In this document: positions 8,457 to 63,115 of the stretch, in pieces | Position numbering within the stretch: position 1 is the first letter of the stretch | How the letters are laid out: every line of letters begins with the position of its first letter | NCBI GenBank assembly: GCA_035512495.1 | Contig: DATKDW010000017.1 | Coordinates: 1-64,000 of the forward strand | Origin: Acidimicrobiales bacterium | GTDB lineage: Bacteria; Actinomycetota; Acidimicrobiia; Acidimicrobiales; CADCSY01 | Direction of reading: 5' to 3' | Length of the DNA stretch: 64,000 nt | Program-made: the position numbers and the translations under genes | Notes under the pieces: generated by a model | Seen by the model: only the letters and a program-made list of their open reading frames with translations | Told to the model about the DNA's origin: nothing | Database searches by the model: none

Positions 8457-8519
8457 GGCTCGCGGGGCCCGTCAGCGAGCTGGTCCCTCCCACACCCTCC
8501 GCAGGCTCCGGGTCCCTCC
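8457..8519 (+). repeat. 63-bp direct repeat, first copy (family C)
   Basis: This segment begins right after the SDR stop codon and is repeated exactly at 8586-8648, an offset of 129 bp. It contains CTCCGCAGGCTCCGG, shared with the window start and with 63022-63118. Confidence 0.85.
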
Positions 8520-8551
8520 CCTCGCTGCCACCCGCTCGCGGGCGGTTGAGC

Positions 8552-15578: not shown

Positions 15579-15605
15579 CCACCTCACCGTCCGACCGCAG
15601 ACGTT

Positions 15606-15625
15606 GCCGGGCCCTCGGGCCCGGC
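15606..15625 (+). terminator. Perfect 9-bp GC hairpin
   Basis: GCCGGGCCC and GGGCCCGGC flank a minimal loop, 28 bp after the stop of the small hydrophobic protein. No U-run follows, as usual in high-GC actinobacteria. Probably ends the 11.98-15.58 kb transcript. Confidence 0.55.
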
Positions 15626-15693
15626 AGCGTCGCGTCCGGGATCGTCTTGCACGTCCGTGGCGGCCGCCCGGCAGGGAGCCGCGGGCGGCCGGG

Positions 15694-15699
15694 TACCCT
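15694..15699 (+). promoter_or_regulatory. -10 hexamer of lpdA-E2-lipBA operon
   Basis: TACCCT, 39 nt before the GTG start at 15739. Here a normal leader with a GGAGG ribosome site (15723-15727) separates promoter and start, unlike the leaderless genes nearby. Confidence 0.4.
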
Positions 15700-15738
15700 G
15701 AGCCGCGAGCCGAGACGAGTCCGGGAGGCAGGCGCAGC

Positions 15739-17142
15739 GTGGCCGAGCAGTTCGATGTCGTGATCATCGGTGGTGGCCCCGGTGGGTACGCCGCCGCCCT
15801 CTACGGCGCCGCCGCCGACCTCCGGATCGCCATGATCGAGAAGGACAAGGTCGGGGGGACCTGCCTCAACCGCGGCTGCATCCCCGCCAAGGAGCTCCTC
15901 GAGACCGCCAACGTCTTCCGCCAGGTGGCCGGCGCGTCGGCGTTCGGCGTCGAGGCCGGCGAGCCCACCGTCGACTACGCCGCCACCATGGCCCGCAAGA
16001 CCAAGATCGTCGACGGGCTGGTGAAGGGCCTCACCGGCCTCCTCGAGGCCAAGAAGGTCACCACCTTCGCCGGCACCGGGACCTTCGAGGGCGGCGGCAA
16101 GGTCACCGTCACCGCCGACGACGGCACCACCACCGACCTCGTCGGCAACAGCGTGGTCCTCGCCAGCGGCTCGGTGCCCCGCACCATCCCCGGCTTCGAG
16201 GTCGACGGCCGCTTCGTGCTCACCTCCGACGAGCTCACCCAGGACATGGTCGACCTGCCCCGCTCGGCGGCGGTGATCGGCGGCGGCGCCATCGGCTGCG
16301 AGTTCGCCTCCTACCTGAGCGACCTCGGCGTGTCGGTCACCGTGCTCGAGGGGCTGCCGAAGATCCTCCCCGGCTGCGACGTCGACGTGGCCAACGTGGT
16401 GCTGCGCAGCTTCAAGAAGCGCAAGATCGACGTGCGCACCGGCGCCAAGGTCACCGGCCACACCCCCGGCACCGACACCACCACCGTCCACCTCGACGGC
16501 GCCGACGACGTCGAGGTCGAGCGGGTGATCGTGTCGGTGGGCCGCCGCCCCCTCTCGGACAGCCTGGGCCTCGACGGCACCGGCGTCGAGGTCGACGAGC
16601 GCGGCTTCGTCAAGGTCGACGGCAGCTGCCGCACCACCGTTGAGGGCGTGTGGGCGGTGGGCGACCTGGTCGCCACCCCTCAGCTGGCCCACATCGGCTT
16701 CATCGAGGGCATCAACGCCATCAAGGACATCCTCGGCGAGCGCCCCGCGCCGGTGGAGTACGACAAGGTCCCGTGGTGCATCTACTGCCACCCCGAGGTC
16801 AGCTTCGTCGGCCACTCCGAGGAGTCGGCCCGGGAGGCCGGCTTCGACGTGGTGGTGAGCAAGCACCAGTACCGCGGCAACGGCCGGGCCCTGATCGTGG
16901 GCGAGACCGACGGCCTGGTGAAGGTGATCGCCGCCAAGGGTCCCGACGGCCGCGCCGGGCAGATCCTCGGCGTGCACATGGTCGGACCGTGGGTGACCGA
17001 GCAGCTCGGTCAGGCGTACCTGGCGGTCAACTGGGAGGCGTCGGTCGACGAGGTCGCCGAGCTGATCCAGCCCCATCCGACGCTGTCCGAGCTCTTCGGC
17101 GAGACCGTGCTCTCGCTGACCGGCCGGGCCCTGCACGGCTAG
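15739..17142 (+). CDS. lpdA: Dihydrolipoyl dehydrogenase (E3)
   Basis: 467 residues. Flavoprotein that reoxidises dihydrolipoyl groups of 2-oxoacid dehydrogenase complexes with NAD. Visible are the FAD loop VVIIGGGPGGYAAA, the redox-active disulfide in GGTCLNRGCIPAKE, the NAD loop AVIGGGAIGCEFAS, the second FAD motif VWAVGDLV and the C-terminal His-Glu pair in HPTLSE. GTG start chosen from the GGAGG site; earlier codons are not conserved. It heads an operon with an E2 and the fused lipBA gene. No E1 gene is in the window, so pyruvate versus 2-oxoglutarate use is open. Confidence 0.95.
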   Translation: MAEQFDVVIIGGGPGGYAAALYGAAADLRIAMIEKDKVGGTCLNRGCIPAKELLETANVFRQVAGASAFGVEAGEPTVDYAATMARKTKIVDGLVKGLTGLLEAKKVTTFAGTGTFEGGGKVTVTADDGTTTDLVGNSVVLASGSVPRTIPGFEVDGRFVLTSDELTQDMVDLPRSAAVIGGGAIGCEFASYLSDLGVSVTVLEGLPKILPGCDVDVANVVLRSFKKRKIDVRTGAKVTGHTPGTDTTTVHLDGADDVEVERVIVSVGRRPLSDSLGLDGTGVEVDERGFVKVDGSCRTTVEGVWAVGDLVATPQLAHIGFIEGINAIKDILGERPAPVEYDKVPWCIYCHPEVSFVGHSEESAREAGFDVVVSKHQYRGNGRALIVGETDGLVKVIAAKGPDGRAGQILGVHMVGPWVTEQLGQAYLAVNWEASVDEVAELIQPHPTLSELFGETVLSLTGRALHG

Positions 17143-17183: not shown

Positions 17184-18614
17184 ATGGCCGACATCACGAT
17201 GCCCCAGCTGGGGGAGACCGTCACCGAGGGGACGATCACCCGTTGGTTCAAGGAGGTGGGCGACCAGGTCGAGGAGGACGAGGTCCTCTTCGAGGTCTCC
17301 ACCGACAAGGTCGACTCCGAGGTGCCGTCCTCGGCCGCCGGCACCCTCACCGAGATCCTGGTGCAGGAGGGTGACACCGTCGACGTGGGCACCCGCCTCG
17401 CCGTCATCTCCGACGGCGACGGGGGTGGCGGCGAGTCGGCTGCCGCCGGAGCCGCCGGGTCCGGGGACGCCCCGGCCGAGGATGGCGGCGCCGACGACGA
17501 GGCGCCGACGGACGACGCCGCGGTGGCTCCGGCCGCCGAAGCCGCAGAGAAGACCGAGGGCGAAGACGATGCCCCGTCCGCCACGAGCACCGCCGGTGAG
17601 CAGGCACCGGCGAGCGACGCCGCCACCGGTGAGCCCGACGGGTCGGCCGCCGGCCGCCTCCTGTCGCCGGTCGTCCGGCGCCTGGTCGCCGAGCACGGCC
17701 TCGACCCCTCCTCGATCGAGGGCACCGGCGCCGGTGGGCGGATCACCCGCAACGACGTGCTCGCCGTCGTCGAGCGCGAGGGCGGAGGCGCCGCCGAGCC
17801 CAAGAGGGCCGCTCCCTCGGCCACGCCCGCGCCGGCGGCCACCGAGCCGGGCGCCGGCCCGCGACGGGCCGAGCCCATGCCCCTGGCAACGGCTGGCGAG
17901 CGCGACGAGGTCGTGCCGCTGTCCAACATCCGCCGCCGCACCGGTGAGCACCTGGTCCGCTCCCTGGCCACCTCGGCCCACACCCTGGTGGCCATCGAGG
18001 TCGACTACGACAACCTCGACAAGGTGCGCCAGCCGGCCCGGGCCTCGTTCAAGGACGAGGAGGGCATCAGCCTCACCTACCTGCCCTTCATCACCCGGGC
18101 TCTCGTCGACGCCATCCGCGAATTCCCCCACGTCAACTCGTCGGTGGGCGACGGCGAGCTGATCGTCCACCACGACGTCAACGTCGGCATCGCCGTCGAC
18201 ATGGACTTCGAGGGCCTCATGGTGCCGGTCGTCCGCGGCGCCGACGGCAAGCGGCTGCGGGCGCTGGCGCGCGAGATCGCCGAGCTCGCCGCCCGCACCC
18301 GGGACAAGCGCCTGGGTCCCGACGACATCGCCGGCGGCACGTTCACCATCACCAACCCCGGCCCGTTCGGCACCTTCGTCACCTACCCGATCATCAACCA
18401 GCCCCAGGTGGCGATCCTGTCCACCGACGGGGTCAAGAAGCGCCCCGTCGTGGTCGAGGCGGCCGACGGCAGCGACGCGATCGGCATCCACCCGACGGGC
18501 ACCCTGGCGCTGTCGTTCGACCACAGGGCCTTCGACGGCGCGTACGCGGCAGCGTTCCTCGCCAAGGTGAAGGAGATCCTCGAGACGCGGGACTGGGCGG
18601 CGGAGCTCACGTAG
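17184..18614 (+). CDS. Dihydrolipoamide acyltransferase (E2)
   Basis: 476 residues. One lipoyl domain (residues ~1-78) with the lipoylated Lys42 in the sequence STDKVDSE, a long Ala/Glu/Asp-rich linker (~80-150), a peripheral-subunit-binding domain (~153-190, LLSPVVRRLVAEHGLD ... GGRITRNDV) and the C-terminal catalytic domain ending with DHRAFDG, which carries the active-site His and Asp. Core of the pyruvate or 2-oxoglutarate dehydrogenase complex. AGGAGAGG precedes the ATG. The stop TAG shares one base with the GTG of lipBA, placing lipoate assembly under the same translation. Confidence 0.93.
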   Translation: MADITMPQLGETVTEGTITRWFKEVGDQVEEDEVLFEVSTDKVDSEVPSSAAGTLTEILVQEGDTVDVGTRLAVISDGDGGGGESAAAGAAGSGDAPAEDGGADDEAPTDDAAVAPAAEAAEKTEGEDDAPSATSTAGEQAPASDAATGEPDGSAAGRLLSPVVRRLVAEHGLDPSSIEGTGAGGRITRNDVLAVVEREGGGAAEPKRAAPSATPAPAATEPGAGPRRAEPMPLATAGERDEVVPLSNIRRRTGEHLVRSLATSAHTLVAIEVDYDNLDKVRQPARASFKDEEGISLTYLPFITRALVDAIREFPHVNSSVGDGELIVHHDVNVGIAVDMDFEGLMVPVVRGADGKRLRALAREIAELAARTRDKRLGPDDIAGGTFTITNPGPFGTFVTYPIINQPQVAILSTDGVKKRPVVVEAADGSDAIGIHPTGTLALSFDHRAFDGAYAAAFLAKVKEILETRDWAAELT

Positions 18615-20380
18615 TGCTGCGCGCCCGCTGGCTCGGCACCGTTCCGTACCGGGAGGCCCTCGACCTCCAGCGGGGGCTGGTGGCGTCGTCGGCCGACGAT
18701 CACCTCCTCCTGCTCGAGCACCCGCACGTCTTCACCCTCGGTGTGCGCGCCGATGCTGCCAACGTGCTCGTGCCGCCGGCGTCGGTCGGCGCCGACCTCG
18801 TTCACGCCGACCGGGGTGGCGACGTCACCTACCACGGCCCCGGCCAGCTGGTGGGCTACCCGCTCCTGCACGTGCCGGGCAAGCGGGGCGGCGGGATGGC
18901 CGACACCGTCGCCTACGTGGCGTCGGTCGAGCAGCTGGTCATCGACGTGCTCGGTGACCTGGGCCTGCCTGGGGCGGGCCGCTTGCGGGGGCTGCCCGGC
19001 GTCTGGGTCGACCCCGACAGCGACGCGCCTCGCAAGGTGGCCGCCATCGGGGTGCGGCTGTCGCGGGGGCGCTCCATGCACGGCTTCGCCGTCAACGTCG
19101 ACCCCGACCTGGCCATGTTCGGCCACATCGTCCCGTGCGGCATCAGCGACCGAGCGGTGACCTCCCTGGCGGTCGAGGGGCTCGACGTGGCCATGCGCGA
19201 GGTCGTCGACGCCGTGGTGGCGCGGGCGGCCGAGCGGTGGGGCGGAGGGGTCGTCGAGCGCCAGGACGTGGTGTGGCGCCACCTCGACACCGACCTGTCG
19301 GCGTTCTCGCGGGGGCTCGGCCCCGGCCCGGTGGCCGCCGCGGTCGACCCTGAGGCCGCCCCGGCCGCGCCCGCACCCGGAGCCCCGGTGCGCATCGGCC
19401 GCCGGCTGGCGGAGGCCGGCGTGGTGCAGGGCCTCACCATCGGGGAGCGCAAGCCCGCCTGGCTGCGGGCCAAGGCCAGGATCGGGCCCGACTACCTCCG
19501 GTTGGAGCAGACCATGCGCGAACTCTCGCTGGTCACCGTCTGCGAGGAGGCGGGCTGTCCCAACATCTACGAGTGCTGGGCCGACGGCACCGCCACGTTC
19601 ATGATCAACGGCGAGCGCTGCACGCGGAAGTGCGGGTTCTGCCTGGTCGACACCCGACACCCCGAGCCGCCCGACCTCGGGGAGCCCGAGCGGGTGGCCG
19701 AGGCCGTGGCGCGCATGGGGCTGGCCCACGCGGTGGTGACCACCGTGGCCCGCGACGACCTCGACGACGGCGGCGCCGCCGGCTTCGCCGCCACCATCGA
19801 GGCCATCCGCCGCCGCTCACCCGCCTGCGCGGTCGAGGTCCTGATATCCGACCTGCAGGGCGACGCCACTTCGCTCCAGGCCGTCCTCGACGCCCGGCCC
19901 GACGTGGTCAACCACAACCTCGAGACCGTGGCACGCCTCCAGCGGGCGGTGCGGCCCTCCGCCGGCTACGCCCGCTCGCTGACGGTGCTGGCCCGCGCCA
20001 AGGCGGCGGGCCTCACCACCAAGTCCAGCCTCATCGTGGGCATGGGGGAGACCGACGACGAGGTGGTGGGCGCCCTCGGCGACCTCGCCGGCGTGGGGAC
20101 CGACATCGTCACCATCGGCCAGTACCTCCGGCCCACCGCCAACCACCTCCCGGTGGCGAGGTGGGTCGAGCCCGCCACCTTCGAGACGCTGGCGGCGGCG
20201 GGGGAGTCGCTCGGCATCGGTCACGTGGAGGCGTCGCCCCTCACCCGGTCGAGCTACCACGCCCGTCAATCGGCAGCCGCCGTGGGGCTCGACGGGACCC
20301 GTCGCCGATCGGATCCTTCCCAGCCCTCCTCCGTCGGGCCGGGCCCCTTCCATCGGCGCCACCCGCTCGCGGGCGTGTAG
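18614..20380 (+). CDS. LipB-LipA fusion: octanoyltransferase plus lipoyl synthase
   Basis: 588 residues in one frame. Residues ~1-225 are LipB: HPHVFTLG, RGGDVTYHGPGQLVGYPL, the catalytic pair Lys141 (RKVAAIGV) and Cys175 (IVPCGI). After an Ala/Pro linker (~236-258), residues ~260-553 are LipA: auxiliary cluster Cys310-Cys315-Cys321 (CEEAGCPNIYEC), radical-SAM Cys336-Cys340-Cys343 (CTRKCGFC) and the serine ligand motif RSSYHA. So both steps of de novo lipoate assembly (octanoyl transfer from ACP, then insertion of two sulfurs) reside in one chain, coupled by a 1-bp overlap to the E2 acceptor gene. These are normally separate, adjacent proteins. The last ~35 residues (20273 on) are not LipA and run into a family-C repeat. 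Confidence 0.95.
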   Translation: MLRARWLGTVPYREALDLQRGLVASSADDHLLLLEHPHVFTLGVRADAANVLVPPASVGADLVHADRGGDVTYHGPGQLVGYPLLHVPGKRGGGMADTVAYVASVEQLVIDVLGDLGLPGAGRLRGLPGVWVDPDSDAPRKVAAIGVRLSRGRSMHGFAVNVDPDLAMFGHIVPCGISDRAVTSLAVEGLDVAMREVVDAVVARAAERWGGGVVERQDVVWRHLDTDLSAFSRGLGPGPVAAAVDPEAAPAAPAPGAPVRIGRRLAEAGVVQGLTIGERKPAWLRAKARIGPDYLRLEQTMRELSLVTVCEEAGCPNIYECWADGTATFMINGERCTRKCGFCLVDTRHPEPPDLGEPERVAEAVARMGLAHAVVTTVARDDLDDGGAAGFAATIEAIRRRSPACAVEVLISDLQGDATSLQAVLDARPDVVNHNLETVARLQRAVRPSAGYARSLTVLARAKAAGLTTKSSLIVGMGETDDEVVGALGDLAGVGTDIVTIGQYLRPTANHLPVARWVEPATFETLAAAGESLGIGHVEASPLTRSSYHARQSAAAVGLDGTRRRSDPSQPSSVGPGPFHRRHPLAGV

Positions 20381-20401: not shown

Positions 20402-20466
20402 TCTTCTTCAGGGGCTCGACGGGGCCCGTGCCGCCGTAGACGCGGTCTGACCGGCACCCCCCCGGC

Positions 20467-20517
20467 GTTCGGGCACCAGAACCGCGCCGGAAGGTGGCGC
20501 GATCCTGGTGCCAGAAC
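20467..20517. repeat. 51-bp palindromic element, family A copy 1
   Basis: Arms GTTCGGGCACCAGAACCGCG and (reverse) TTCTGGCACCAGGATCGCGCC pair almost completely; each arm holds a near-palindrome TTCTGGCACCAGAA. Lies between the convergent lipBA and channel genes, 8 bp past the channel stop codon, so a bidirectional terminator role fits. Confidence 0.8.
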
Positions 20518-20525
20518 GATGTGTC

Positions 20526-21236: not shown

Positions 21237-21347
21237 CGGCGTGCCCACGTTGACGACACTGCCCGCCAAACGGCCGCAGGACGCGGATCCCAGTGTCCGG
21301 TCCTGGGAGACTGGGCGGTGGAACTCGTGACCACCGCACCCCAGCGT

Positions 21348-21398
21348 GTTCTGGCACCAGAACCGCGCTGCTTTCCGGCGCGATCCTGGTGCCAGAAC
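21348..21398. repeat. 51-bp palindromic element, family A copy 2
   Basis: GTTCTGGCACCAGAACCGCG ... CGATCCTGGTGCCAGAAC, same length and layout as copy 1. Ends 8 bp before the stop codon of the PNPOx-like gene (its downstream side). Confidence 0.85.
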
Positions 21399-21406
21399 GA
21401 TGGTGT

Positions 21407-23152: not shown

Positions 23153-23181
23153 TGGACCTAGGGATCGAGGGCCGGGTGGCG
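23149..23181 (+). repeat. 33-bp direct repeat copy 1 (duplicated SDR start)
   Basis: Matches 23247-23279 at 31 of 33 positions (differences at 23160 and 23172). It includes the M24 stop, an ATG and the first nine or ten codons of the SDR. A 51-bp family-A element lies between the two copies. Confidence 0.9.
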
Positions 23182-23250
23182 GGCTTCTGGCACCAGGATC
23201 GCGCCGGATCTCGCAGCGTTTCTGGTGCCAGAACGAGGGAGGAGCGCTGA
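23152..23250 (+). CDS. 32-codon leader frame created by repeat insertion
   Basis: Starts at the ATG overlapping the M24 stop and reads MDLGIEGRVAGFWHQ, that is, the first ten residues of the SDR and then family-A repeat sequence. It ends in a TGA that again overlaps the real SDR start (TGATG at 23248-23252). Translational coupling from the M24 gene to the SDR could thus pass through this small frame. Whether the peptide is stable or useful is unknown. Confidence 0.4.
   Translation: MDLGIEGRVAGFWHQDRAGSRSVSGARTREER
23184..23234. repeat. 51-bp palindromic element, family A copy 3
   Basis: CTTCTGGCACCAGGATCGCG ... GTTTCTGGTGCCAGAAC. The outer 14-bp near-palindromes are kept but the inner part is more degenerate than in copies 1, 2 and 4. 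Only this copy is flanked by a direct repeat. Confidence 0.8.
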
Positions 23251-23987: not shown

Positions 23988-24025
23988 GGGGCGCGGGTGG
24001 GGCGGCGTGCGGTCCCCCCCCAGGG

Positions 24026-24076
24026 CTTCTGGCACCAGAACCGCGCTGCCTGACGGCGCGGTTCTGGTGCCAGAAC
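24026..24076. repeat. 51-bp palindromic element, family A copy 4
   Basis: CTTCTGGCACCAGAACCGCG ... CGGTTCTGGTGCCAGAAC, the most perfect copy. Lies between the convergent SDR and GerMN genes, a terminator position. A short G-rich run (GGGGTGGGGTGGGGAGG) follows it. Confidence 0.85.
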
Positions 24077-24104
24077 GGGGTGGGGTGGGGAGGGGGGGCT
24101 CCGG

Positions 24105-43519: not shown

Positions 43520-44581
43520 TCAGACGGTGGGGGTGCCGGCCGCCCGCCACAGGAAGGTGACCGACTGGCCGCGGGTGACGCCGCTCATGGGGTTGAACTG
43601 GGTGGGCGTGGCGCCGGTGGTGATGCCCTGCTCCGCCGCCCACGCCACCGCCGGCTCGTAGTAGGAGCCCGCCTCGACGTCGGTGAAGGGGTGCGAGCCG
43701 GAGGCCGGCTGGCCTGCCGCCCGCCACTGGAAGGTCACCATCTGGGCCCTGCTCACCGTCAGGTGGGGCCCGAAGGTGGTCGGCGAGGTGCCGGTGGTGA
43801 TGCCGGCCGTCGATGCCCAGGCCACGGCCTGGTCGTAGTAGGAGCCGGGGACCACGTCGGTGAAGCCGTGCGTGCCCGACGTCGGGCTGCCGGCGGCCCG
43901 CCAGAGGAAGGTCACGGCCTGGGCCCGGGTGACGCCCCCGTTGGGGCTGAAGGTGGTGTCGGTGGTGCCGGTGGTGATCGAGACCTTCCACGCCCAGTCG
44001 ACCGCGCCGTAGAAGTAGGCGTCCTGGGCCACGTCGGTGAAGGTCGGGTGGGTGGGGCTGACGGCGGCAGTCTCGGCCAGGGCCGGGCCCTCGAGGAAGT
44101 TGAAGGTGACCCAGATGGTCGAGCCGCTCAGGACCACGCCGACGCCGAGGCGGTTGTAGCGCCCGACGACGTTGTCGTAGTGGGTGGGCGAGTCCATGAA
44201 GGCTTGGTGGAGGGTGGCCACCGACCCGCCGCGACCCACGTTCTCGCCGATGCGGGTCCACTCCGTGGTGACGCGGGCCTCGACCTGCTCGAGGAGGTCG
44301 GGGCGGTGGTGGAGGTGGGTGGTCGACATCACGCCCGACCAGTCGTGTGCGATCCCGGCCATCCCGGAATCGGCGTCGAGGGCCGCCAGGCCCCTGGCGG
44401 TGCGCTCGTCGTTGAGGAGGGTGAAGAACTCGTGCTCCATCTCGGAGGCGGTGGAGCTCTGGGCCTCGGCCACGGTCGTGTCCGCCCCCAGCAGGCCGGT
44501 GGTGGCGATGGCGAGGGTGGCGACGAGGACGAGCAGCCGCCGTGCGAGCACGTTGCGGGGGCTGCGGGCCAAGATCCTCAT
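43520..44581 (-). CDS. Secreted CAP-domain protein with three SLH repeats
   Basis: 353 residues. Signal peptide (~1-40, RRLLVLVATLAIATTGLLGAD), a CAP/SCP1 domain (~45-165, FFTLLNDERTARGLAALDAD ... IAHDWSGVM ... RIGENVG ... WVTFNFLEG) and three S-layer-homology-type repeats (FTDVAQDAYFYGAVDWAW, FTDVVPGSYYDQAVAWAS, FTDVEAGSYYEPAVAWAA, each ending VTRxQxVTFLWRAAG). Exported and non-covalently held on the cell wall by the repeats. CAP domains in bacteria are often linked to wall or lipid binding; activity unknown. Confidence 0.88.
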   Translation of the reverse strand: MRILARSPRNVLARRLLVLVATLAIATTGLLGADTTVAEAQSSTASEMEHEFFTLLNDERTARGLAALDADSGMAGIAHDWSGVMSTTHLHHRPDLLEQVEARVTTEWTRIGENVGRGGSVATLHQAFMDSPTHYDNVVGRYNRLGVGVVLSGSTIWVTFNFLEGPALAETAAVSPTHPTFTDVAQDAYFYGAVDWAWKVSITTGTTDTTFSPNGGVTRAQAVTFLWRAAGSPTSGTHGFTDVVPGSYYDQAVAWASTAGITTGTSPTTFGPHLTVSRAQMVTFQWRAAGQPASGSHPFTDVEAGSYYEPAVAWAAEQGITTGATPTQFNPMSGVTRGQSVTFLWRAAGTPTV

Positions 44582-55756: not shown

Positions 55757-57709
55757 TTACGAGGGGGCGGTGGTGGCGCCGGTCTCGATGAGGAGGTCGA
55801 GGGTGCGGGCGATGAAGCTGGCCATCTGGTTGCGGCGCACGGTGGCGTCGGGGCTGAACTTCCCGTCGCCGGTGCCGGCGGCGATGCCGGCCGAGGCGGC
55901 CTTGTTGATGTTCGCCTCGTGGGTGTGGCCGTCGTCGTCGGTGAACCAGTTGCCGGTGGCGACCATGGGCTGGTCGACGATGAGGTCGTGGGCCCGGACG
56001 AGGAAGGTGGCCATGGCGGCACGGCTCACGGTGGCCTCGGGCCAGTAGCGGCCGTCGCCGGAGCCCTTCACCACGCCGACGGCGGCGAGCTGGTTGATCC
56101 GGAGGTGGTGGACCGACGTGCCGTCGTCGCTGAACGCGTCGGGCGGGTCCGCCGGCAGGGCGTGGCCGGCCTCTTCGATGGTCCGGGCGACGAAGGAGGC
56201 CATCTGGGCCCGGCTCACGGTGCCGCTCGGGTCGAAGGTGGTGGCGGTGATGCCCTTGGCGATGCCCCAGGTGGCGACGCAGTCGATGGGGAAGCTGTGC
56301 ACGTCGCTGCTCGGCACGTCGGTGAAGCCGCCCTCGACGACCCAGCCCTCGGGGCAGGAGTCGTCGATCGCGCGGGCGGTGACGCCGGGCTCGTAGTCGA
56401 GCGTGGGCTCGGGCTCGGTGGCGGCAGGCTCGGGCGCCGGCTCGGGCTTGGGCTCCGGCGCGGCGAGCGCGGCGGCGGCGAAGCTGAGGGCGTCGGCGGT
56501 CTGGAGGAGGCCGGCGCCGTACTGCGGGTCCCACCCGGCGGGGCCGAGGTCCTCGGCGCTGCCGACGAGGGCTCGGCGCACGGCGGCGGGGTCGGTGGTC
56601 CCGCCGGCGACGATCATGGCGGCGGCAGCCGACACGTGGGGGACGGCCATCGAGGTGCCGGCCATGAAGCAGTAGCAGAACTTGCCGATCTCCCCGCCCT
56701 GGAGGGTCTGCTGGAGGACGCCGTCGGGGTTCCGGTCCTTGTTCTGGTCGACCGAGAGGTCGCCGCCGGGCCCCACGAGGTCGATCTCTTCGCCGTAGTT
56801 GGAGTACGTGGGGCGGGTCTTGTCGTAGCGGACGGCGCCGACGGCGATGACCTCGGGGAAGGCGGCGGGGTAGGAGACGCTCGAGACGCCCTCGTTGCCG
56901 GTGGAGGCGACGATGACCACGCCCATGCCGCTGGCGTAGGTGACGGCGTCGGCCACCACGGTGGAGCCGGTGGGGCCACCGAGGCTGAGGTTGGCCACCT
57001 TGGCGCCGTTGTCGGCGGCGAAGCGGATGGCCTTGGCCACGTTCCAGTCGGACCCCGAGCCGTTGGCGTCGAGCACCCGGATGGGCATGATCGTCGCCTT
57101 GTGGGACAGGCCGGCGACGCCGACCCCGTTGTCGGTCGACTGGGCGAGGGTCCCGGTCACGTGGGTGCCGTGGCCGTTGCTGTCGTCGGGGGTGGCGTCG
57201 TCCTCGACGAAGTCCCAGCCGGCCACGAACGTGGTGTCGGCCAGGTCGGGGGCGGCGGTGTGCACACCGCGGGTGTGGGAGGCCGCGCCGCTGTCGATCA
57301 CGGCCACGACCACGCCCTTGCCGGCCGCCGGCTGCGCCGTCCACGCCTCGGTCGACTGCACCATGGGGAGGTGCCACTGGCTCGAGTAGAGCGGGTCGTT
57401 GGGCGTGGTGTGGGCCTGCACGGCCACGGTGGGGCTGATCTCTGCCACCGCGCCGCCGGCCGCGGGACGCCGCGAGGTCGTCGGCCGGGCCAGGACGAAG
57501 TCGGTGCCGGGGGCGGTGTCGACCACCTCGAGGCCTCGGGCCACGAGTGCCTGGCTGCGCTCGGCGGCGGGCGTCCCGGCGGCGAAGCGGACCACCACAG
57601 GGTCGCGGTCGGAGCCTGACGCGCTTGCGGCCCCCGCGGGGGCCGTGGTGAGGAGGGTGACGGCGACGAGGACCGCCACCAGCACCGATAGGTTCTTCCG
57701 CCGTGTCAC
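55757..57709 (-). CDS. Secreted S8 subtilisin-like protease with SLH repeats
   Basis: 650 residues from the GTG at 57709. Signal peptide (TRRKNLSVLVAVLVAVTLL ... APAGA), propeptide (~30-100), catalytic domain with Asp139 (AVIDSGAASH), His180 (DSNGHGTHVTG) and Ser in AGTSMAVPHVSAA, a Pro/Glu-rich spacer (PEPKPEPAPEPAATEPEP), then three SLH repeats (SFPIDCVATWGIAKGI, INQLAAVGVVKGSG, INKAASAGIAAGTG). A cell-wall-held protease. A farther ATG at 57796 is disfavoured because a TATACC promoter hexamer falls between the two starts. Confidence 0.9.
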   Translation of the reverse strand: MTRRKNLSVLVAVLVAVTLLTTAPAGAASASGSDRDPVVVRFAAGTPAAERSQALVARGLEVVDTAPGTDFVLARPTTSRRPAAGGAVAEISPTVAVQAHTTPNDPLYSSQWHLPMVQSTEAWTAQPAAGKGVVVAVIDSGAASHTRGVHTAAPDLADTTFVAGWDFVEDDATPDDSNGHGTHVTGTLAQSTDNGVGVAGLSHKATIMPIRVLDANGSGSDWNVAKAIRFAADNGAKVANLSLGGPTGSTVVADAVTYASGMGVVIVASTGNEGVSSVSYPAAFPEVIAVGAVRYDKTRPTYSNYGEEIDLVGPGGDLSVDQNKDRNPDGVLQQTLQGGEIGKFCYCFMAGTSMAVPHVSAAAAMIVAGGTTDPAAVRRALVGSAEDLGPAGWDPQYGAGLLQTADALSFAAAALAAPEPKPEPAPEPAATEPEPTLDYEPGVTARAIDDSCPEGWVVEGGFTDVPSSDVHSFPIDCVATWGIAKGITATTFDPSGTVSRAQMASFVARTIEEAGHALPADPPDAFSDDGTSVHHLRINQLAAVGVVKGSGDGRYWPEATVSRAAMATFLVRAHDLIVDQPMVATGNWFTDDDGHTHEANINKAASAGIAAGTGDGKFSPDATVRRNQMASFIARTLDLLIETGATTAPS

Positions 57710-57811: not shown

Positions 57812-59842
57812 CTACAGGGGCAGGCTCGACTCGTGGTTGCGGTAGGCGGCCTGGTTGCCGATGCCCGTCACCGAGCCGGCGGCGATGGCGCCCCGGCGAG
57901 CGGTGCCCATGGCGGCGTAGGCGACCGGGTCGGTGGCGCTGTTCGCGGCGCAGATCACCTGGTGGGGGGTGCCGCCGGCCACCGTGCAGCCGGCCAGGAC
58001 GTGGGGCACGGCGTCGGCGTCGTCGACGGTGAGCACCGCCTCGGCGAGGAGCACCACCGGCCGGTCGAAGCGGTAGACGAGGAGCCGCTCGCTGGCCCCG
58101 TCGCCCACCGGCCGCTGCACCCGGCCCACCCGCACGAGCGTGGGCGCCGCGGTCTGCCCGCTGGCGAAGTGGGCGGTGCGGCCGAGCTCGTCGACCTGGT
58201 TGGTGAGCTCGGGGCGGGCGGCCGACCACACCACGCCCGGCTCGACCGAGGCGCCCTGGGTGAGGTGGTCGATCGAGCCCTCGGGGAAGGTGACGTCGGC
58301 GGCCCGGTTGTCACCCGCGACCGGCTGGGCCTCGGCCGAGCGCACCTCGCTGCCGTCGAGGGCGTAGACCCGCCATGCCGCTTCGGGCTCGGTCGAAGAC
58401 GGCACCACGATCGCCTCGTCGAAGGTGAAGCGCACCACGTCGCGCCCCTCGTCGATGGCGACGGTGACGAGGTCGGGCCCCATGGTGTGCCCTGCCCCGA
58501 CCGCCGGGGCCGCCTGCTGGGGGTTCGTGTCGCCGCCGCCGGCCGCCTCGACCGCCAGGGTCTGCACGTAGCCGCGCTTGACCTCGGCCGCGTCCTCGGC
58601 GGTGAGGGCGAGCGTCACCCGGTGCACAGCGGTGCCACTGCCGCTCACCAAGGTCCCGATGACGACGCGGCCGTCGTCGAGGATCACCCGGTAGCGGTCG
58701 GCGCGCAGCGAGGTGGCCGCCTGGTCGAACACGAAGTCGGCGCTGCCCTCGACCACCCCGACCACAGCGGCGAGGTCGGGGGCGGTGGTGGTGCCCGAGA
58801 CGAGGGTGAGGGCGCCGATGCCGGCGCTGCCCTCGGGCCCGAGGTGGCCGACCTCGTCCTGGACGGCGTTGCGGGCGACGGTGGCGGTGGTGGCGAGGCG
58901 GATGGCCTCGGTGTCGGCGGCGGCGAAGGTGGCGACCACCTGCCGGCGGTCGGTGATGCCCCGGGCCACCTCCTCGGCCCGGACCTGCTCGGCGGCGAAG
59001 GTGTAGGCCCGGAACCGGCTGCTCACGAGCGTGGGGCTCACCTCCTGGTCGAAGGCATAGACCAGGCGGGGCCGTCCGTCCTCGGTGGGCTGGGCCCGCT
59101 CGACGCCCATCAGCTCGGGGCTGGCCAGCGTGGCCGTCACGCCGGTGCGCGCCAGGTCGACCGCCATGTCCTCGGTGAGGGCGTCGAGGGCTCGGGCGAG
59201 GAACAGAGCCATCTGGCCGCGGGTGACGAGCGCGCCGGGGGCGTAGCGGTGGGGGGCGACGCCCACCACCACCCCGAGCTCGGCGAGCTGGTCGATCCGG
59301 CGGGCGTGGGTGCCGCTGACGTCGTCGAATGCCGGTCCGGCGGGCTCGGGCAGGGGAGCGGCGGCGATCACCTCGATGGCGCGGGCCACGAACGAGGCCA
59401 TCTGCTCGCGCGTCACCTCGAGGTCGGGGTGGAAGGTGCGGGGGCCGGTGCCGGTGGTGACGCCGGTCTGGCCGAGCTGATCGATGGCGTCGGCGTGGAC
59501 GCTGCTGGCGATGTCGTCGAAGCCGTACGGCGACCGGGGCTCGGGCACGGCGGCACCGCCCACGCGCATCGACCGCACCAGGAACGAGGCCATCTGCCCG
59601 CGGATGACGGTGAGCTCGGGGGCGTAGTGGCTGTTGGTGGCGCCCCGGGTGATGCCGTAGAAGGCGACGCAGTCGACGGCCTCACCAGTGGCGCCGTCGG
59701 GGCGGTCTGCGAACGAGGAGGTGCCGGCCACCTCGCACGCCTCGGTGGTGGTGCGGGGGACCGCCTCGTCCTCGGCGCTCGCCGGCAGGGCGACGGAGGT
59801 CAGGACCAGGGTCGCAGTGATCGCCGCCGTCACGCCTCGCAC
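57812..59842 (-). CDS. Secreted SLH-repeat surface protein with beta-sandwich region
   Basis: 676 residues from the GTG at 59842. Signal peptide (TAAITATLVLTSVALPASA), three SLH repeats (~35-215, each with a YGITRG/TGVTTG/LGVVVG turn and a RGQMASFLVRS-like end), then ~450 residues of repeated beta strands without a known enzyme motif (RLVYAFDQEVSPTL, VVRFTFDEAIVVPSS, LLVYRFDRPVVLL are internally similar, suggesting three related domains). An ATG at 59896 leaves only 11 bp to the divergent WecB gene, so the GTG is preferred. Confidence 0.8.
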   Translation of the reverse strand: MRGVTAAITATLVLTSVALPASAEDEAVPRTTTEACEVAGTSSFADRPDGATGEAVDCVAFYGITRGATNSHYAPELTVIRGQMASFLVRSMRVGGAAVPEPRSPYGFDDIASSVHADAIDQLGQTGVTTGTGPRTFHPDLEVTREQMASFVARAIEVIAAAPLPEPAGPAFDDVSGTHARRIDQLAELGVVVGVAPHRYAPGALVTRGQMALFLARALDALTEDMAVDLARTGVTATLASPELMGVERAQPTEDGRPRLVYAFDQEVSPTLVSSRFRAYTFAAEQVRAEEVARGITDRRQVVATFAAADTEAIRLATTATVARNAVQDEVGHLGPEGSAGIGALTLVSGTTTAPDLAAVVGVVEGSADFVFDQAATSLRADRYRVILDDGRVVIGTLVSGSGTAVHRVTLALTAEDAAEVKRGYVQTLAVEAAGGGDTNPQQAAPAVGAGHTMGPDLVTVAIDEGRDVVRFTFDEAIVVPSSTEPEAAWRVYALDGSEVRSAEAQPVAGDNRAADVTFPEGSIDHLTQGASVEPGVVWSAARPELTNQVDELGRTAHFASGQTAAPTLVRVGRVQRPVGDGASERLLVYRFDRPVVLLAEAVLTVDDADAVPHVLAGCTVAGGTPHQVICAANSATDPVAYAAMGTARRGAIAAGSVTGIGNQAAYRNHESSLPL

Positions 59843-63021: not shown

Positions 63022-63115
63022 TTCCCACCCCCTCCGCAGGCTCCGGGGGCGGGCCCCTTCCGTCGGCGCCACCCGCTCGCGCGCCGTTGAGCGGTCTCGG
63101 CCTTCGGCCGAGGCC
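63022..63115. repeat. Family-C repeat copy with TTCG hairpin
   Basis: CCCTCCGCAGGCTCCGGGG, CGGCGCCACCCGCTCGCGCG and the terminal hairpin GGTCTCGGCC TTCG-type (63093-63115). Lies between convergent genes; the stop codon of the transporter gene (63118) directly follows, and the hairpin probably ends transcription from both sides. Confidence 0.75.

Follow-up and report, generated by a model that had tools for sequence, protein, structure and literature searches.

Lipoate assembly involves two enzymes that act in sequence, the octanoyltransferase LipB and the lipoyl synthase LipA, and the original prediction for this locus described them as normally separate proteins. The gene considered here appears to carry both, directly behind the gene for an E2 component of a 2-oxoacid dehydrogenase. 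The locus therefore raises the question of whether the gene specifies one bifunctional protein, where such a fusion came from, and whether joining the two enzymes does more than place them on one chain. Here, we address this question for the window (the whole 64,000-nucleotide stretch of DNA that was analysed) and for the corresponding loci of other Actinomycetota, and we consider it very probable that the gene encodes one bifunctional LipB-LipA protein, the product of a fusion that arose once and was kept.

LipB and LipA in one reading frame

The gene translates without a stop into a protein with a predicted mass of 61.7 kDa (Table 1). In a profile search, the fused protein passed the cut-offs of curated equivalog models for both enzymes, namely NF010925 (188.8 bits against a cut-off of 155) and TIGR00214 (131.4 against 83.55) for LipB and TIGR00510 (333.3 against 310.25) for LipA, the matches spanning residues 3-212 and 277-555, respectively. 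A structure search paired the LipB half with 2qhs (Z 29.8) and 1w66 (Z 29.5), and the LipA half with 5exk (Z 41.6) and human LIAS (Z about 40). A complete LipB and a complete LipA in one uninterrupted frame had been proposed from the DNA, and this is borne out by the 588 stop-free codons and the equivalog scores.

The catalytic residues named earlier are likewise all in place: Lys141 and Cys175 of LipB, the auxiliary-cluster cysteines Cys310, Cys315 and Cys321, the radical-SAM cysteines Cys336, Cys340 and Cys343, and the RSSYHA motif at residues 545-550. Among 155 fused homologues, H74, K141 and C175 occur in every one, the six Fe-S cysteines of the CX4CX5C and CX3CX2C motifs are invariant, and the serine of RSSY is present in 154. 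Because all catalytic residues are invariant, we infer both activities. The LipB half would thus load Cys175 with the octanoyl moiety of octanoyl-ACP and then transfer this moiety to a lipoyl-domain lysine, in the E2 encoded by the adjacent gene or in GcvH, after which the LipA half would insert sulfur at C6 and C8 with the help of its two 4Fe-4S clusters.

Compared with known single-function enzymes, the fused protein shares with Mycobacterium tuberculosis LipB (1w66, 2qhs) a complete domain with the Lys/Cys dyad, at 48-50% identity in structural alignments, but continues at its C-terminus into a linker and LipA. With M. tuberculosis LipA (5exi-5exk) and human LIAS it shares both cluster motifs and RSSY, the LipA half being 51-54% identical to the M. 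tuberculosis enzyme in Foldseek alignments, whereas the N-terminus that is free in those proteins is here joined to LipB.

The fused gene is the only match to full LipB and full LipA in this Acidimicrobiia MAG, a draft of 97 contigs; with a single LipA and a single true LipB in the genome, de novo synthesis must therefore rely on the fused chain for both of its steps. The genome also encodes GcvH and a NifU_N/IscU-type protein. Two LplA/B-type proteins (L121, G000:C62:122877-123389; L122, G000:C27:2219-2698), each adjoining an HNH endonuclease gene, possibly serve in lipoate salvage or transfer, and one of them may be a contaminant.

Table 1. Features of the lipB-lipA locus, in window coordinates
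Feature	Position	Strand	Remarks
Dihydrolipoyl dehydrogenase E3	15604..17142	+	ORF as listed
E2 of 2-oxoacid dehydrogenase (SucB-like)	17184..18614	+	476 aa; one lipoyl domain, TDKV Lys42
lipB-lipA fusion gene	18614..20380	+	588 aa; single copy in genome
LipB (octanoyltransferase) domain, residues 1-215	18614..19258	+	Lys141 (19034-19036), Cys175 (19136-19138); profile, Pfam and structure matches
Interdomain linker, residues 216-273	19259..19432	+	No stop codon; end overlaps LipA N-terminal arm
Candidate internal start GTG, residue 259	19388..19390	+	GGAG (19379-19382) 5 nt before it; not positionally conserved in relatives
LipA (lipoyl synthase, radical SAM) domain, residues 274-556	19433..20281	+	Profile, Pfam and structure matches
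C-terminal tail, residues 557-588	20282..20377	+	Low model confidence

The fusion gene closes a series in which the E3 gene stands upstream of the E2 gene and the E2 gene upstream of the fusion. The true start of E3 is probably at about 15739, with domain homology beginning near residue 48 of the listed ORF. The one-base overlap of the fusion GTG with the E2 stop is as described before (...CACGTAGTGCTG..., TAG 18612-18614, GTG 18614-18616). Translational coupling to E2 is plausible, since E2 lies directly upstream of the fusion in 76 of the 86 class loci for which 1 kb or more of upstream sequence is available, usually overlapping it or separated by a short gap; a 77th class locus (L088) has E2 about 2.7 kb away. 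The accompanying proposal, that E2 is the lipoylated acceptor, holds insofar as the E2 gene adjoins and encodes a lipoyl domain, but E2 is not the sole likely acceptor, GcvH being encoded in the same genome.

Several repeats mark the locus and its surroundings. The last codons of the fused gene consist of a G+C-rich repeat (20336-20374), which recurs at 17-55, 112-150, 8505-8543 and 63046-63084, and at about 15 places genome-wide; the end of the protein's C-terminal tail (about residues 575-588) is thus probably repeat-derived. A palindromic intergenic repeat (TTCTGGCACCAGRAYCGCGC ... inverted copy) is present in four copies within 3.6 kb (20457-20523, 21338-21404, 23174-23240 and 24016-24082), its half-site having 52 matches genome-wide against 0 for a control pattern. 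A 69-nt repeat occurs in seven copies with a spacing of 177 nt or larger (43561-43983, 55822-55890, 56200-56268 and 59398-59658), and these copies are possibly repeated protein domains.

Distribution and origin of the fusion

A protein search gave a match in 56 of 59 genomes of relatives and in 142 of 149 genomes of the class, two sets that share 17 genomes and so comprise 181 genomes with a match. When the DNA was read directly, LipB and LipA shared a frame, unbroken by any stop between the two, at all 99 class loci, and the same was found at all of 70 further loci that had been selected for search rows that were split or contained stops. The fusion is therefore present in about 178 Acidimicrobiia genomes, that is, those with both halves readable, the three others of the 181 being left unjudged (G008, LipB only; G010, frame breaks; G120, not read). 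Among these approximately 178 genomes, none has a separate lipB/lipA pair as its sole copy. That the two proteins are normally separate accordingly describes the situation outside Acidimicrobiia, whereas inside the class fusion is the rule; relatives throughout the class align over both domains, in a set that maps to one clade. A plasmid search returned no record in which a single place covered 80% or more of the query.

As the genome is a draft, a sequencing or assembly error might have removed a stop between two genes. The identical join, however, is found in every readable genome of the class, including that of a named isolate (L066) and the single-contig genomes G013, G017 and G042, and this class-wide conservation refutes an artefact, which we consider vanishingly improbable. 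Nor is chance a likely reason for the open frame. The local G+C content of fused loci ranges from 33 to 76%, and at the 33% of the Actinomarina-like loci a randomly open linker is unlikely; the recurrence of stop-free, same-frame joins in every readable Acidimicrobiia genome, these loci included, takes the open frame far beyond chance.

A few loci call for separate comment. L043 and L138 failed the automatic test for fusion, but a stop where LipB has a tryptophan codon or frame breaks account for this, and both loci look like cases of assembly error within LipB rather than of separate genes. In another genome of the class, a 5-kb contig bears an additional lipB/lipA pair with the genes separate (L115, G104:C83); this pair groups with the outgroups in the LipA tree, suggesting a contaminant or a transfer. 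One relative appears to have two fused copies (G002:C85 and G002:C3, 74% and 69% identical to the window protein), which may reflect a paralogue or contamination.

Outside the class, lipB and lipA were separate at 35 of 35 loci of other Actinomycetota whose DNA was read directly (L100-L110, L111-L114 and L197-L216). Two genomes from outside the class, G223 and G273, showed one shared frame in the search table, but their DNA has a stop between the genes, so that open-frame length in that table is by itself no proof of fusion. Actinobacterial operons with separate E2, lipB and lipA resemble the fused locus in gene order and neighbours, but differ from it in having a stop and a short gap between the genes. 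Most outgroup loci have lipB followed by lipA at a short gap, and the ancestral state was therefore probably an adjacent pair. In a LipA tree of 77 rows, a single branch separates the fused rows from all others (SH-aLRT 91), and the same holds for a LipB tree (SH-aLRT 85), each requiring one change of state; both are quick trees of moderate support. With the fused sequences forming a single clade for LipA and likewise for LipB, the simplest reading is a single ancient fusion of neighbouring genes at the base of Acidimicrobiia, such that lipB and lipA would have been joined once in the ancestor of the class and kept since.

The linker and the products of the gene

Between the two domains, the linker is partly conserved (xDLSxFxRG; RL..AGV), with a middle that is Ala/Pro-rich and poorly ordered. 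Across lineages, its length varies from about 8 to over 100 residues and the conserved motif is absent from some, so that the linker is in itself no precise device. Its dN/dS is about 0.17, compared with 0.11 for LipB and 0.08 for LipA (17 close pairs), and its pN/pS in close pairs is 0.24, nonsynonymous change being about a quarter of synonymous change. With a dN/dS near the values of both domains, the linker is under purifying selection at the protein level, which supports its translation in frame.

Alongside the full chain, the gene might yield extra free LipA from a start within the linker, giving an excess of LipA. The window has a suitable candidate in the GGAG-n5-GTG at 19379-19390, just before LipA, and 57 of 167 linkers contain an in-frame start accompanied by an SD-like motif, the SD fraction of starts being 0.17 there against 0.11 in the domain bodies. 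Such a surplus could also make sense physiologically, since LipA consumes its auxiliary cluster at each turnover. The positions of these starts are scattered, however, and that of the window is not conserved; a strict SD is found in only 6 of 167 linkers, 13 of 167 have no in-frame ATG, GTG or TTG at all, and predicted LipB starts reach 0.38 by the same measure. Free LipA as an additional product is thus possible in the window but is no feature of the class, and we regard internal initiation as a general account of the gene as quite improbable.

This bears on the earlier suggestion that fusion fixes the ratio of LipB to LipA, a suggestion that holds only as long as no LipA comes from an internal start. 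Since each turnover costs LipA sulfur from its auxiliary cluster, a constant 1:1 ratio would depend on efficient repair of that cluster, and this dependence is a real point against a simple argument from an optimal ratio.

Domain packing and the hand-off between active sites

An AlphaFold2 model of the fused protein, built from 70 fused sequences, has a pLDDT of 90 and a pTM of 0.90, with low values in the core of the linker and the last residues. The model of an Actinomarina protein (L093), from 40 sequences in an alignment with no row from the window's order, also reaches a pTM of 0.90. Had the two domains, about 215 and 290 residues long, been loosely joined, we would have expected a clearly lower pTM, and the observed value therefore predicts that they pack in a defined way. 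Lipoate-ligase structures superposed on either model cover the LipB core and finish in one and the same LipA helix (residues 452-464 in the window protein and 435-447 in L093), an indication that LipA is placed against LipB alike in the two, the structure-match tables giving first and last aligned residues only. A fixed LipB-LipA packing is thus predicted from pTM and alignment ranges.

With such a packing, an octanoylated lipoyl domain could pass between the two sites on one molecule. Direct hand-off from LipB to LipA, which the original prediction had put forward as substrate channelling, is plausible, and the predicted geometry is compatible with channelling as a hypothesis. Alternatively, the fusion may have been neutral, a stop having been lost between co-transcribed neighbours and the change fixed once and hard to reverse, with two active domains that act independently and without hand-off; such a history would compete with the hand-off step only, and would leave the bifunctional protein as it is. 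It accords with lipB and lipA being neighbours at short gaps already in most outgroups, with linkers that differ in length and sequence, and with the nature of the LipB product, an entire protein domain, which has to dissociate before it can bind again. It sits less well with zero reversals to separate genes in about 178 genomes, where a new stop and start would suffice, and with the confident packing reproduced from two alignments. We take neutral fusion to be a serious contender, if one we stop short of favouring. The most far-reaching form of the hand-off proposal is that all Acidimicrobiia have a two-site enzyme of fixed geometry, with LipA docked on LipB and one lipoyl domain octanoylated and then sulfurated without release, and that this docking may mirror a transient LipB-LipA complex where the enzymes are separate; we advance it tentatively and hold it unlikely.

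The closest known architecture is the LplA-LipA fusion of NF053790 (bifunctional lipoate--protein ligase/lipoyl synthase), which likewise places an attachment enzyme N-terminal to LipA but whose first half is named a lipoate ligase, in contrast to LipB in the window protein. The latter is no member of that family, scoring 331.4 bits against a cut-off of 800 and matching only profile positions 331-605, the LipA half. In a literature search, no paper describing a LipB-LipA fusion protein was found; the available part of PMC10332631 discusses other fusions of these families, and none there joins LipB to LipA. An NCBIfam profile search with the fused protein surfaced the curated LplA-LipA model and none for LipB-LipA. 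Such fusions may well have been annotated automatically in databases already.

For annotation, naming the protein only as "lipoyl synthase" or only as "LipB" would make these organisms seem to miss one step of the pathway. For the class itself, the fusion appears to be a clean molecular marker, a shared derived trait of Acidimicrobiia, and as a natural single chain for structure and kinetics it makes physical cooperation between LipB and LipA testable.
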